Shown in pieces: positions 10,309-15,105 of a stretch of DNA of 41,852 nt. Source of the DNA: an uncultured Spirochaeta sp. (GTDB taxonomy: Bacteria; Spirochaetota; Spirochaetia; DTKZ01); assembly GCA_937140905.1 (NCBI GenBank), contig CAKZQO010000178.1, positions 1 to 41,852 on the forward strand, written 5' to 3'. A program made the position numbers and the translations under genes. The notes under the pieces were generated by a model that was not told the origin of the DNA, ran no database searches, and saw only the letters and a list, made by a program, of their open reading frames with translations. How positions within the stretch are numbered: the first letter of the stretch is position 1; the number at the start of each line of letters is the position of its first letter.

Positions 10309-10337
10309 ACTATAGCGAAAATATCATCGATTGGAAA
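10309..10337 (-). promoter_or_regulatory. Candidate promoter of the AbrB-family gene
   Basis: Reading the minus strand: TTTCCA (10337-10332), a 17-base spacer and TATAGT (10314-10309). The -10 box ends 11 bases before the ATG at 10297, predicting a leader of only a few bases. It overlaps the 3' end of the upstream gene. Confidence 0.35.
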
Positions 10338-11259
10338 GCCGAAACCGATCTTTCATGGCTGCTTCCCACGCGAGGATCGCTTTCTTTCGTAACGGTCCTT
10401 CCCCATAATTCCCAAACTCGCCATTCTTCCGTAGAACCCGATGGCAGGGAATGAGAAAGGGAATCAGATTTTCGCCAACAGCACTCCCCACCGCCCTCGA
10501 GGCGTTTACGTTTCCCACCTTTTTAGCGAGCCCTTCGTAGCTTACCGCTTCCCCTAGAGGAACACGAATCAAGGCCTCCCATACTTTTATCTGGAAATTG
10601 GTTCCCTGGACGTACAGGTGCAGGGGGCCTGGGGGGATATATTTTATTTCCCGGCTTTCCCAAGGGCTTACTCCGTTGGAATCTGCCCAGTTCCAGAGGG
10701 GATAGGGGAAAATCCGGTCTATAAGCTGCTCACCGGGCCTTGGATCGTGCAGTATGTTAGCTTTCGGCCATTTTTCCATCAGATCCCGAACCAGGGTATC
10801 CTCCGTCATCCCCTGTTGCAGGAAACGCAGGGCGCAAACCCCTTTTTCCGTAACACCGATGAGGCATTTCCCAAAGGGCGATGGATGGAATCCATACCGG
10901 ATCTCTAATCCCTTCCCCCGGGAACGGATATCTCCGGGCCTTACGGCTTCCGTTGTAAGGAGTAGATCGTGCAGGCGAGAAGGACTGGACAACCCACTCT
11001 CATAGGTGGCATCCAGAACACTGGAGGATCTCAATAAGAGCTCCTTGGCATGCTCCTTCGTCAAGTATTGGCAGAACCGTTTGGGACTGATCCCTACCCA
11101 TCGACTGAAAAGTCGCTGGAATTGAAACACACTCAAACCTACAGCCTGGGATAGTTCTTCTAGAGAGGGCTGTAAACTGGGATTAGCTTCTAATACTCCG
11201 ATGACCCTCTCCACTAGTTGGTAGTCGGAAGATGCCGTATCCAATAAATTTTTATACAT
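10324..11259 (-). CDS. AraC-type regulator fused to O6-methylguanine-DNA methyltransferase (Ada-like, lacking the Ada N-terminal zinc domain)
   Basis: It repairs O6-alkylguanine by transferring the alkyl group to its own cysteine and probably also regulates transcription. Of 311 residues, about 15-110 form an AraC-type HTH domain (LEELSQAVGLSVFQFQRLFS and flanking helices). From about 125 a ribonuclease-like methyltransferase domain follows, ending with the active-site IPCHRVLRKNGEFGNYGEG. Unlike E. coli Ada, there is no N-terminal Cys-rich phosphotriester-sensing domain, so how it would be switched on is unclear. A GAGGT ribosome site precedes the ATG. It lies downstream of the XPB helicase pair on the same strand after a 70-base gap, forming a likely DNA-repair cluster, and has a possible promoter of its own. 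Confidence 0.88.
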   Translation of the reverse strand: MYKNLLDTASSDYQLVERVIGVLEANPSLQPSLEELSQAVGLSVFQFQRLFSRWVGISPKRFCQYLTKEHAKELLLRSSSVLDATYESGLSSPSRLHDLLLTTEAVRPGDIRSRGKGLEIRYGFHPSPFGKCLIGVTEKGVCALRFLQQGMTEDTLVRDLMEKWPKANILHDPRPGEQLIDRIFPYPLWNWADSNGVSPWESREIKYIPPGPLHLYVQGTNFQIKVWEALIRVPLGEAVSYEGLAKKVGNVNASRAVGSAVGENLIPFLIPCHRVLRKNGEFGNYGEGPLRKKAILAWEAAMKDRFRLSNR

Positions 11260-11277
11260 CGAGTTACCTCATTCAGT

Positions 11278-11307
11278 AGTGTATCGAAATGAGATACCTA
11301 TCCGCAA
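11278..11307 (-). promoter_or_regulatory. Candidate promoter/operator of the Ada-like gene
   Basis: Minus strand: TTGCGG (11307-11302), an 18-base spacer and TACACT (11283-11278). The inverted repeat GTATC-N7-GATAC (11281-11297) lies within the promoter and could be an operator, for example for autoregulation by the AraC-type domain. Both readings are inferences from pattern alone. Confidence 0.35.
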
Positions 11308-11329
11308 CCCGATTCTTGCAGAGAGTCCT

Positions 11330-13420
11330 CTATCCCACCAAGAACCCCTTTATCCTTCGAACTAGACTTATCTTTCGAACCGGGATCTCCACTCTCGTTC
11401 CCCCTGGCAGGGTAACCCCGCACACGATTAAATCGTTTCCTATTTTCTTAAGTTCCTCGGGACGAAGAATGTACCGCTCGGGGGATCCCTCCTGTCCTCG
11501 AACCAGAATTTCCAGGTAATCGGAGGGAGAAGAGATGGTTTGTTCGATTACTACCGCCTTCCCCGCATAGTCGAGGCCTTTGGCTTCTGTTCGTTCTCGC
11601 CGCTTTAGTTCCGGTCGAATTTGATCAGGATCTACCACGACCTTTGATAGAATCTTTTGTTCCCACTCCTTTCGCTGTTCCTCGGTTAGAGACAGGGACT
11701 CCAACCGTGCAAAGAGTTCGGTTTGAATCCCCAATAGGGAAACAGCAGGTTCTTTTTCTTGAGAGGAGGAAAGAGAGGGTTTGGACTTGGTAAGAGGGGT
11801 TTCGGTTGTTTTCTCAATAGACCCTAATATCTTTGAGGCTATCTGTGGCAAATTAGAAAGGTAGGGATAGTTCCAGGGAAGGAAGTATAAGTATCTAGAG
11901 GGTTTGGTGATTTCAGAACCTCCGTTTAAACGAAAGATCCCTCCTTCTGAGGGTGTGGGAGGTACCGAAATACCCATGTCCTGCAATAACCGTAGGAAAG
12001 GTTCGAACTTCTCTTTCCGAACCAGGTATACACCGGGGGCAAGGACTAGGTGTATATGCTCTTTGATTCGTTCGTGCTGTTCGATTGTTGCTCTTCTCTG
12101 TTCATCAACTTGAACCAAGACCCCTTCGACAAACGATATGCTCCGGTACTCGGATTCCCAACTCTTCAGTTGAACCGACACATTTTGGGGCACTCCATTC
12201 TGGGTGAGTCGTTGAAACAATTGTTCCACCCTTTCGGCCGAAAGACCTTCCGCGAGGCCTTGGAAATAGGAAGTTTTCGTCAGCTCGAAGATGGGGTATA
12301 TGTCGTACCGTCGGACAGTACAGAGAATCGCTAGGGGAAGGGCATCGGATAGCTCGATATGGGGAGTAAGGCTTAGTTCGAAGTTTGGTTGGAGGATAGC
12401 CTTCGGTTCTAAACCGGGTTGAGAGGAAGAGAAAAGGGTGGGATTCAATGCCCAGTGATCCGTTTCTTCCAATGGCACGAATACTCCGTAGGTGCAGAGT
12501 TCTTCGATCCAACTTTCTTCGATTGCAGGCTCGTCCTCCTCTTGAAAGGCTGCCAATAGGGCAAGCCGGTAGAGGACGATTCGGGTATAGGCCTTTTCTA
12601 AAGATAAGGTCTGCAAAAACCCTGAAAGCCAACGAGCTTCCCGAAAGACTTGTTCTCGTTCGGTGTGTTTGAACGCTCTCAGGATAATCAAGATTCGTTC
12701 CAGAGGGGTAAGAGCAGAGAACTCTTTCCACACGGTTAAATCGACGAAAAGAGTATGTTCTTTTTGGAATACGAGCCCCAACCTAAGAAGAGCCCTGATG
12801 ATCTGGTGTAACACCTCTTTCTCCTGACGGAACTGGGGAAAGACGTTTAGGAGTTTCGATTCCATCGGTTTCCGAAGTGTGCCATCCGTCTTCAGGTGTG
12901 ATTCTTGGTGGAGAAGAAAGGAAAGGATGGAAGCCCATAAAGTATCGTTCAACTTTGGAGGTTTGGAGTGTATCTGTGACAGGGGGATCGAATGGATAAG
13001 GAGGGAAAGTTGGATGATCCGTTCCCGAAAACTATCCTCGAACAGAGGATTCAAATAGAACACTTCCGCCCCCTCCACACGGTCTAAGTAGATCAAAAGT
13101 CGATCCTGGAGGTTGCGCAGTTTATTCATCAAAGGAAGGAACGAGTACTGATCCGCCAATAGCCGATGTAGTTTCTGGTGGGTAGGGTTTGGAGTGTAAA
13201 AAATGGCGGTGAGTATGAGGGCATCCTCCGGCTCGATCAACGCTAGAATACGCTCCCGGATAGACTTTTTGCGTAAAAAAGCTTCCAGCGATTCCAGGAT
13301 GGAGTGTTTGTGGTATGGGGTTTTCAATTCTCCCAAGTAGTTTCTCATCAGTTCGAAGAAGGCAGAGTCGGGAAGTTTGAGAAGGGCCGATTTCCAATGA
13401 GAAAGACGATCATCCTTCAT
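11330..13420 (-). CDS. XPB/Ssl2-like helicase-associated protein (Helicase_C_3-type domain), partner of XPB helicase
   Basis: This protein of 696 residues is not itself a helicase, as no Walker motifs are visible. The N-terminal third is helical. A central to C-terminal stretch (about residues 350-500) begins ILQPNFELSLTPHIE and contains FVEGVLVQVDEQ and VLAPGVYLVRKEKFEPFLRLL. This resembles the XPB/Ssl2-like domain (PF13625 type) found in helicase-associated proteins. The chosen ATG overlaps the stop of the XPB helicase gene as ATGA. An in-frame ATG 21 bases further upstream lies inside the helicase gene and has no better ribosome site. Translational coupling strongly suggests that the two proteins form a complex. 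Function beyond helicase partnership is unknown. A role similar to TFIIH p52 or archaeal Bax1 is speculation. Confidence 0.75.
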   Translation of the reverse strand: MKDDRLSHWKSALLKLPDSAFFELMRNYLGELKTPYHKHSILESLEAFLRKKSIRERILALIEPEDALILTAIFYTPNPTHQKLHRLLADQYSFLPLMNKLRNLQDRLLIYLDRVEGAEVFYLNPLFEDSFRERIIQLSLLIHSIPLSQIHSKPPKLNDTLWASILSFLLHQESHLKTDGTLRKPMESKLLNVFPQFRQEKEVLHQIIRALLRLGLVFQKEHTLFVDLTVWKEFSALTPLERILIILRAFKHTEREQVFREARWLSGFLQTLSLEKAYTRIVLYRLALLAAFQEEDEPAIEESWIEELCTYGVFVPLEETDHWALNPTLFSSSQPGLEPKAILQPNFELSLTPHIELSDALPLAILCTVRRYDIYPIFELTKTSYFQGLAEGLSAERVEQLFQRLTQNGVPQNVSVQLKSWESEYRSISFVEGVLVQVDEQRRATIEQHERIKEHIHLVLAPGVYLVRKEKFEPFLRLLQDMGISVPPTPSEGGIFRLNGGSEITKPSRYLYFLPWNYPYLSNLPQIASKILGSIEKTTETPLTKSKPSLSSSQEKEPAVSLLGIQTELFARLESLSLTEEQRKEWEQKILSKVVVDPDQIRPELKRRERTEAKGLDYAGKAVVIEQTISSPSDYLEILVRGQEGSPERYILRPEELKKIGNDLIVCGVTLPGGTRVEIPVRKISLVRRIKGFLVG

Positions 13421-15105
13421 ACCAGTTCTTTTGGATCCCATAATTCTATTCTATACTTGTATCCCTGCTCGGTAAGGAATTTTTGCCGATGGGCTCCAAA
13501 GGTTTCTTCGGTAGTATAGCGCGACAGGATGGAGTAGAAGTAGGAGTTTTTCTGTTTAGGCCGCAGGATCCGTCCCAATCGTTGGGCTTCCTCTTGTCTG
13601 GAACCGAAGGTTCCGGATACCTGGATGGCCACGGAAGCATCGGGTAGATCGATGGCAAAGTTTGCCACTTTCGATACGACGATTTTCCGGATGGCGCCTT
13701 GTTTGAATTCTCGATAGATTCGTTCCCGTTCTGGGTTGGGGGTTTTGCCCGTGATTAGAGGGGCCTTCAGTTCTTTCGCTAGTTCGGCCAGTTGGGAAAG
13801 GTACTGGCCAATGATCAGGACGGAATCTTCCGGATGATTCTTCAGGATCTCCTTACATACCAGGAGCTTATAGGGATTCTCGCTGGCAATGCGAAACTTG
13901 CGCCGCTTGTCTGCTAGGGCATAGGAAAGCTTTAGGTTGTCGGGGAGGTCTACCCGTATCTCGATACATTCCGCTTCCGCGATAAAGCCTTGGGTTTCCA
14001 ACTGTTTCCAGGGAACATCGTACCGCTTGGGCCCTACTAGGGAAAAGACATCCGCCTCCCTTCCATCCTCGCGTATAAGGGTGGCTGTCAATCCCAACCG
14101 GCGAATGCTCTGGATTTCGGCGGTGATGCGGAAGATGGGAGCAGGTAAAAGATGTACTTCGTCGTAGATAATGAGTCCCCATCTCTGTTCCCGAAACAAG
14201 CGAAAATGGGGGAACTCTTCTTCTTTGTTGGATCTCCAAACGAGGATCTGGTACGTGCATACGGTTACCGGTCGGATAGTTTTCAAAGAACCGGTATACT
14301 CGCCGATATCTTCCGGTGAAAGGGTGGTTTTATCGAGGAGTTCGTCTATCCACTGATGGACAGCGGCTACGTTGGTGGTGAGGATCAAAGTGTGGGTCTT
14401 CAGTGCAGCCATGATGGCCATTCCGATTACTGTTTTGCCCGCGCCACAGGGTAGCACGAGGGTTCCAAACCCAGTTCCTGGCTTTTTCCCTGCCAGGAAA
14501 GCTTGCGCGGCATCCTGCTGATAGTTCCGTAGGGAAAAGGGACGGCCAGTGGAAGTCTTTGACCGTAGTTCGATCTGCAGGTAATCCCCTTCCAACAGGG
14601 GAGCTTCATCCTGCACCGGGTAACCGAGATGGATCATCTCCTGTTTGAAGGACCCCCGGTGAATCAAGGGTACTAGGATCTGGTCGTCTCGCAGAAAGTA
14701 GTACTTTTCGAGTTTCTTAGTGTGAAGTATTTCTTCCCGGATGGCTGAATCTGTTACTTCTAGTTCTAATCGGTTTGGGTCGGGGGAAGGGTGCAGTTTT
14801 ACTTTCCCGTACCTGCCTATCGTTTCCCGGATACTCTCGACCACGTTCTTTGGAATTGGGTACCGAGAGTAGGCCTGTAGGATCTGCAGGATTCTATCAG
14901 CGGATAACCCTGTTGATGCGGCATTCCATAGTGAGAGAGGGGTGATTCGATACGTATGGATGTGCTCGGGAGATTTTTCTAGCTCTGCAAACAGGGCGAG
15001 CTCAGCCCGGGCCTCCTCGAATCCAGGGTCGTGCACATCAAGGAGGAGGGAACCATCGCTCTGCACAATCAGAGGTTTATAGGTCGAAGGAGCTTGGGAA
15101 TTCAT
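13417..15105 (-). CDS. XPB/Rad25-type DNA helicase (superfamily 2)
   Basis: This 562-residue ATP-dependent DNA helicase of the XPB/ERCC3 type is expected to act in DNA repair or transcription-linked unwinding. An N-terminal domain (residues ~8-110, beginning PLIVQSDGSLLLDV) resembles the XPB/Ssl2 N-terminal module. Motifs then run in order: Walker A GAGKT (221-225), DEVH (315-318), TATLIREDGRE containing the XPB-specific RED triplet (346-348), and QRLGRILRP near the C-terminus. Bacterial XPB homologues are known in some spirochaetes and actinobacteria. The ATG at 15105 gives the start of recognisable homology. The frame stays open far upstream but encodes Ser/Arg/Thr-rich sequence with no domain. 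A TATACA box lies eight bases before this ATG. Confidence 0.92.
   Translation of the reverse strand: MNSQAPSTYKPLIVQSDGSLLLDVHDPGFEEARAELALFAELEKSPEHIHTYRITPLSLWNAASTGLSADRILQILQAYSRYPIPKNVVESIRETIGRYGKVKLHPSPDPNRLELEVTDSAIREEILHTKKLEKYYFLRDDQILVPLIHRGSFKQEMIHLGYPVQDEAPLLEGDYLQIELRSKTSTGRPFSLRNYQQDAAQAFLAGKKPGTGFGTLVLPCGAGKTVIGMAIMAALKTHTLILTTNVAAVHQWIDELLDKTTLSPEDIGEYTGSLKTIRPVTVCTYQILVWRSNKEEEFPHFRLFREQRWGLIIYDEVHLLPAPIFRITAEIQSIRRLGLTATLIREDGREADVFSLVGPKRYDVPWKQLETQGFIAEAECIEIRVDLPDNLKLSYALADKRRKFRIASENPYKLLVCKEILKNHPEDSVLIIGQYLSQLAELAKELKAPLITGKTPNPERERIYREFKQGAIRKIVVSKVANFAIDLPDASVAIQVSGTFGSRQEEAQRLGRILRPKQKNSYFYSILSRYTTEETFGAHRQKFLTEQGYKYRIELWDPKELV

Follow-up and report, generated by a model that had tools for sequence, protein, structure and literature searches.

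In the genome of an uncultured Spirochaeta sp., the gene of an XPB helicase overlaps the gene of a second protein that is likely, judging from its sequence profile and predicted fold, a remote homologue of p52 and that probably works like it; in human TFIIH, p52 is the subunit that anchors XPB and activates it. The best explanation of the evidence as a whole, which we consider quite probable, is a two-subunit XPB module in which the p52-like partner would clamp and regulate XPB and carry a WYL-like domain that is perhaps tuned by nucleic acids.

According to a published statement no bacterial p52 is known, and a full-text literature search (titles and abstract openings, with most subscription journals and bioRxiv preprints outside its coverage) returned no report of a bacterial p52-like partner of XPB. 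The bacterial pair may represent a small ancestor, or a small cousin, of one section of the machinery that serves repair and transcription in humans. If a p52-like subunit does follow XPB between genomes, the poorly understood bacterial XPB would acquire a concrete partner together with tests of it, the p52-XPB switch would become accessible in a system of two proteins, and the pair would bear on the origin of the TFIIH core.

The three genes of the locus

The window, i.e., the whole stretch of 41,852 nucleotides that was analysed (contig CAKZQO010000178.1), encodes on its minus strand XPB, the partner and an AraC-alkyltransferase in this order, and the arrangement given in the initial annotation was confirmed by coordinates and sequence. 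XPB (13417-15105, minus strand; 562 aa) reaches 856 bits against the NCBIfam family of the DNA repair helicase XPB (NF045503, cut-off 610) and is of the type with an N-terminal clutch-partner domain; the phmmer alignment to the human XPB chain 6nmi_A covers its residues 7-553. The N-terminal domain, which in TFIIH is the part pairing with the p52 clutch, corresponds to residues 12-135 (14701-15072, minus strand; Pfam Helicase_C_3, PF13625, 117.5 bits). The ATPase core occupies residues 190-553 (13447-14538, minus strand), as indicated by Pfam ResIII and ERCC3_RAD25_C and by a motif scan, in which GAGKT was located at residue 221, DEVH at 315, TAT at 340, RED at 345, and QRLGR at 508.

The stop codon of XPB (TGA) and the start codon of the partner (ATG) share the tetranucleotide ATGA (13417-13420, minus strand). 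The partner gene (11330-13420, minus strand; 696 aa), recognized by a profile match to p52 in the PDB and by Foldseek, has an alternative in-frame ATG upstream, at 13441, which would add seven residues. In the partner the motif scan detected no Walker A, DExH, RED, or QRxGR, and PADLOC gave helicase matches for XPB only and none for the partner. Helicase_C_3 matches the partner with 26.8 bits, below the cut-off of 34.2, and is matched in 27 of 29 partner relatives with a best E of 4e-13; the initial description of a protein with an XPB/Ssl2-like domain and devoid of helicase motifs is thus upheld.

The third gene (10324-11259, minus strand; 311 aa) codes for an AraC-type DNA-binding domain fused to an O6-alkylguanine alkyltransferase, with the Pfam domains HTH_18, Methyltransf_1N, and DNA_binding_1 and a PCHR motif at residue 271 (10438-10449, minus strand). 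It differs from Ada, which has an N-terminal zinc domain, since no such domain is among its Pfam matches, and its 144 bits against NF011964 fall short of the cut-off of 345 for Ada membership. An alkylation-repair operon, in which XPB, partner and alkyltransferase would act jointly on alkyl lesions under the control of the AraC domain, would agree with the three same-strand genes, with the 70-base gap between the partner stop and the alkyltransferase start, in which the promoter and terminator scan (with a score not above that of shuffles) listed no terminator-like site, and with a similar alkyltransferase adjoining the pair in two congeneric species. This operon is nevertheless very improbable, as those two species and the window are the only 3 of 30 loci of relatives with such a neighbour, and none was found in the best 80 of 593 XPB loci, many of which have short flanks. 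The alkyltransferase is a lineage-specific neighbour and not part of a conserved module, and the tie to alkylation damage proposed at first is not supported.

Association of XPB and partner between genomes

The pairing of the two genes was followed in 60 related genomes, the genome of the window included, with XPB assigned by its cut-off and the partner at E <= 0.001. XPB was found in 53 and the partner in 51 of them; 50 genomes have both, 3 XPB alone, and 1 the partner alone. XPB directly precedes the partner on the same strand in 42 of the 50 genomes with both; one more pair is separated by a 1.9 kb gap, and the genes of the remaining 7 pairs are apart, in 5 cases on different contigs of draft genomes. 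The pairing exceeds chance, and the conservation of the gene pair, for which the initial annotation had asked, is borne out, the two genes not being commonly apart.

The same association was found in two further phyla. In the one containing the Thorarchaeota record (119 genomes; XPB of the type with N-terminal domain at E <= 1e-100, partner at E <= 1e-5) XPB is present in 26 genomes and the partner in the same 26, and 17 of these pairs are located on one contig and strand, with 2.8-5.5 kb from the XPB match to the partner match. In the phylum of the Desulfosporosinus record (Bacillota, 149 genomes; XPB at E <= 1e-150, partner at E <= 1e-5), 10 genomes have XPB and the same 10 have the partner, with 8 pairs on one contig and strand. 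The partner profile also weakly matches the XPB domain; the best partner match lay outside XPB in all 36 genomes. Fisher tests of co-occurrence in the 60, 119, and 149 genomes gave 1e-5, 8e-27, and 9e-16, respectively, values that are overstated because relatedness is ignored.

A scan of genome contigs with the XPB profile gave 593 loci, and in the best 80, mostly from spirochaetes, the partner is beside XPB in 56 and elsewhere in the locus in 2. Among the others, 5 end within 600 bases and 17 are without a partner above 40 bits, the count being restricted to ORFs above this score, so that weak ones in L106 and L108 are omitted. In 10 genomes behind XPB loci, the partner is present somewhere in 9; of the 7 with none in the locus, 6 have it in the genome; in Methanolliviera, an archaeal genome with an XPB locus, no partner was found genome-wide. 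No natural fusion of XPB and partner was found.

Other neighbours of XPB were also observed. In two loci of Hydrogenedentes (L097, 3319-6510; L098, 8644-11805), XPB is followed by an overlapping frame of ~1055 aa, which has nuclease domains of the AddB-like and PDDEXK_1 types, and the partner is therefore not adjacent to every XPB; the genome of L098 encodes its p52-like partner elsewhere than at the XPB locus. A plasmid of Gloeocapsopsis has a Helicase_C_3 gene directly upstream of XPB (L121, 4101-5975), in reversed order with respect to the window. In a Thorarchaeota record (L096, 3237-4460), an AAA gene similar to the replication factor C large subunit separates XPB from the p52-like gene, on the opposite strand.

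Sequence and predicted fold of the partner

As a single sequence, the partner gave only weak matches in the PDB, to designed repeats and by chance; this search was uninformative and a profile was therefore needed. The profile was built from 29 partners, with the partial partner of L016 excluded from the alignment (A1), and its top match among all PDB sequences is human TFIIH p52 (E 3.2e-6), followed by the p52 of Chaetomium (0.016) and yeast (0.07) and by XPB (0.078). The alignment to human p52 comprises profile positions 263-476, being wider than the clutch and including the stretch before it. The identity between partner and p52 is 12-16%, and P411, W421, and G433, invariant in all 29 partners, are also present in the aligned yeast and human p52 stretches. 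Mutagenesis of the Tfb2 clutch, as reported in PMC9557730, indicates that the change of yeast E447 to K slows growth and that R380 is the contact of E447; the partner position of E447 is acidic in 22 of the 29 sequences, that of R380 is basic in 25, and both features occur together in 21. The same work describes the charged pair E310/R314 of human p52 as important for the binding of XPB; the aligned residues of the partner are Q344/E348, so this XPB contact is not kept.

The Pfam family Tfb2 (PF03849) does not match the partner of the window (P0002) and matches 1 of the 29 members (E 6.8e-5); in the 60 relatives, 13 genomes have a match at E <= 1 and none reaches the cut-off. These 13 places are scattered, with 4 inside the partner gene, 2 inside XPB, and the rest elsewhere, and consequently the Tfb2 test does not carry the p52 claim. 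Since the Tfb2 cut-off is not reached and no Tfb5 (p8) or Tfb4 (p34) match at E <= 1 was found in the genome of the window, the bacterial pair is not a TFIIH and the partner is p52-like but is not filed as p52.

The AF2 model of the partner (pLDDT 81.4, pTM 0.70) can be divided into consecutive regions. Residues 1-335 (12416-13420, minus strand) form a helical and winged-helix part with pLDDT mostly of 75-95, on which the alignment starts from p52 residue 43. Residues 336-433 (12122-12415, minus strand) correspond to a clutch (HubA)-like domain, as deduced from the VIA fold match and the invariant residues, and residues 434-485 (11966-12121, minus strand) show in the model a strand-helix-strand-strand-helix succession and match the p52 C-terminal region, on the p8 side in TFIIH. 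In Foldseek, ranks 1-20 are all p52/Tfb2 chains (best E 2.0e-11), with alignments of 486-520 columns in 17 of the 20, and XPB chains come next (9e-4). The p52 fold alignments extend to partner residue 481-485 and p52 residue 458-461; in VIA, 354 partner residues (57-483) are placed on p52 43-459 with Z 13.3.

VIA gives Z near 13 alike for the partner against XPB N-terminal domains and against the best p52 chains. The former comparison concerns one domain, at 1.6-2.6 Å over 90-94 residues, the clutch giving Z 13.6 and 1.6 Å over 90 residues with the human domain and also being within the p52 alignments; the comparison with whole p52 extends over 178-362 residues at 13-24 Å, and that with 7nvv, the XPB-bound part of p52, over 250 residues at 8.0 Å. 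The whole-chain rmsd to p52 is mostly near 20 Å, and TM is 0.16-0.25 (by query) or 0.25-0.41 (by target), values that point to domains turned against each other. The model thus predicts a single chain in which, as in p52, winged-helix domains precede the clutch, in a different domain arrangement, and together with the p52 clutch sequence alignment it indicates a clutch/HubA fold homologous to the XPB N-terminal domain.

The Thorarchaeal partners provide a second family, represented by 20 of 26 ORFs (alignment A3; L140, L144, L145, L147, L151, and L153 were excluded as truncated or of uncertain start). They align with the spirochaete partners over 31-489 with an hhalign probability of 98.9%, leaving the WYL part outside. 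One model (pLDDT 71.5), independent of the spirochaete one, has p52 in Foldseek ranks 1-19 (best 3e-11), and four others are poorer (pLDDT 47-61). Weak matches to Pfam Tfb2 occur in 16 of the 20. At the C-terminus, where spirochaetes have the WYL-like domain, these proteins (L131, 436-2151, and 19 relatives) show a conserved C-x2-C-P-A-x3-C motif, which is a possible metal site.

The partner might instead carry only a duplicated XPB N-terminal domain, with the rest unrelated and no whole-protein kinship to p52. Helicase_C_3 is in fact found in both XPB and partner, whose profiles can be aligned solely over positions 341-490 (E 6.4e-8), and the Thorarchaeal profile matches XPB (0.0015) and not p52 (1.8) among PDB sequences. 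Sharing a domain with XPB is, however, a property of p52 itself: the clutch of p52 has the fold of the XPB N-terminal domain, and the two make up a pseudo-symmetric dimer within TFIIH (PMC6422496). Moreover, p52 ranks above XPB with the spirochaete profile, the alignment of which reaches beyond the clutch, and both the spirochaete and the Thorarchaeal model match p52 over ~500 columns and XPB over ~160, which makes the duplicated domain an unlikely account of the protein.

Residues 616-696 (11333-11575, minus strand) form a WYL-like domain, identified by its VIA fold match to PafBC (Z 11.1, 1.9 Å over 80 residues); BrxR, DriD, and CapW also match. Pfam WYL did not match any of the 29 partner C-terminal domains, and the sole PDB sequence match, to residues 436-508 of 8BNV, is not significant (E 0.29). 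8BNV is the Deferribacter Pif1 helicase DdPif1, which has a C-terminal WYL domain (PMC9964779). The WYL domains of PafBC are reported to bind single-stranded DNA via arginines (PMC11804915); in the partners, positions 621, 682, 683, and 688 are basic in at least 25 of the 29, a pattern that could fit such binding, with a tentative register to PafB R211/R214. PafBC, BrxR, and DriD, all fold matches of the partner, typically contain WYL and winged-helix domains, which together with the overlap of the two genes would suit a stand-alone transcription regulator, whose winged helices bind DNA and whose WYL-like domain senses a ligand, controlling the XPB operon or a damage response. This regulator is rather improbable: the clutch is a feature matched in 27 of 29 members, the region 31-489 over which the Thorarchaeal partners align does not include the WYL part, and co-occurrence holds where the genes are apart, as would be expected of a subunit more than of an operon regulator.

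Proposed mechanism and comparison with known systems

In the two-subunit module, the partner clutch would pair with the XPB N-terminal domain via beta-sheets, as p52 does in TFIIH, and the partner would thereby hold XPB and set its ATPase/translocase activity. The WYL-like domain may, more tentatively, bind single-stranded DNA or another nucleic acid, and this binding could switch XPB on or place it where damage or unwinding exposes a strand. A broader proposal, which we put at somewhat below an even chance, is that XPB and the p52-like subunit represent an old two-protein translocase, working without TFIIH in bacteria and Thorarchaeal archaea, around which TFIIH was later built; the spirochaete WYL-like domain would add single-strand sensing, so that the partner would clamp XPB and at the same time direct it to open DNA.

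The initial annotation had likened the partner to both p52 and Bax1. The former analogy stands as regards the p52-like profile and fold and the co-occurrence in three groups; the latter is not supported, no nuclease domain having been seen in the partner. Bax1 is a known XPB partner in archaea (PMC7293015), and the archaeal pair resembles the present one in that XPB has a dedicated partner. A Bax1-like helicase-nuclease pair is nonetheless extremely improbable, as the Pfam listing for the 29 members includes no nuclease family; there is also no Bax1 chain among the fold matches listed, which alone excludes nothing.

The same Helicase_C_3 domain as in the partner is present in the "helicase-associated domain-containing protein" of Actinomycetota, Deinococcota, and Bacillota, which adjoins or is near XPB in Tsukamurella, Actinomyces, Deinococcus, and Paenibacillus; it is annotated by this domain alone, and the records give neither a function nor a relation to p52. 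The neighbour of XPB in mycobacteria is presumably Rv0862c.

The C-terminal WYL-like fold is common to the partner, PafBC, DriD, BrxR, and the WYL-bearing Pif1, with no sequence-level WYL match in the partner; the conserved R682, K683, and R688 match the arginines of the ligand groove only loosely. In the WYL-bearing Pif1 the domain is part of a helicase. p52 (GTF2H4/Tfb2) has the order winged helices, clutch/HubA, C-terminal region that is predicted for the partner, and both are companions of XPB; p52 lacks the WYL-like end that the partner has. With respect to p52-XPB of TFIIH, the system described here is a bacterial two-gene unit with an extra WYL-like domain in the partner, low identity, and one contact pair not kept.
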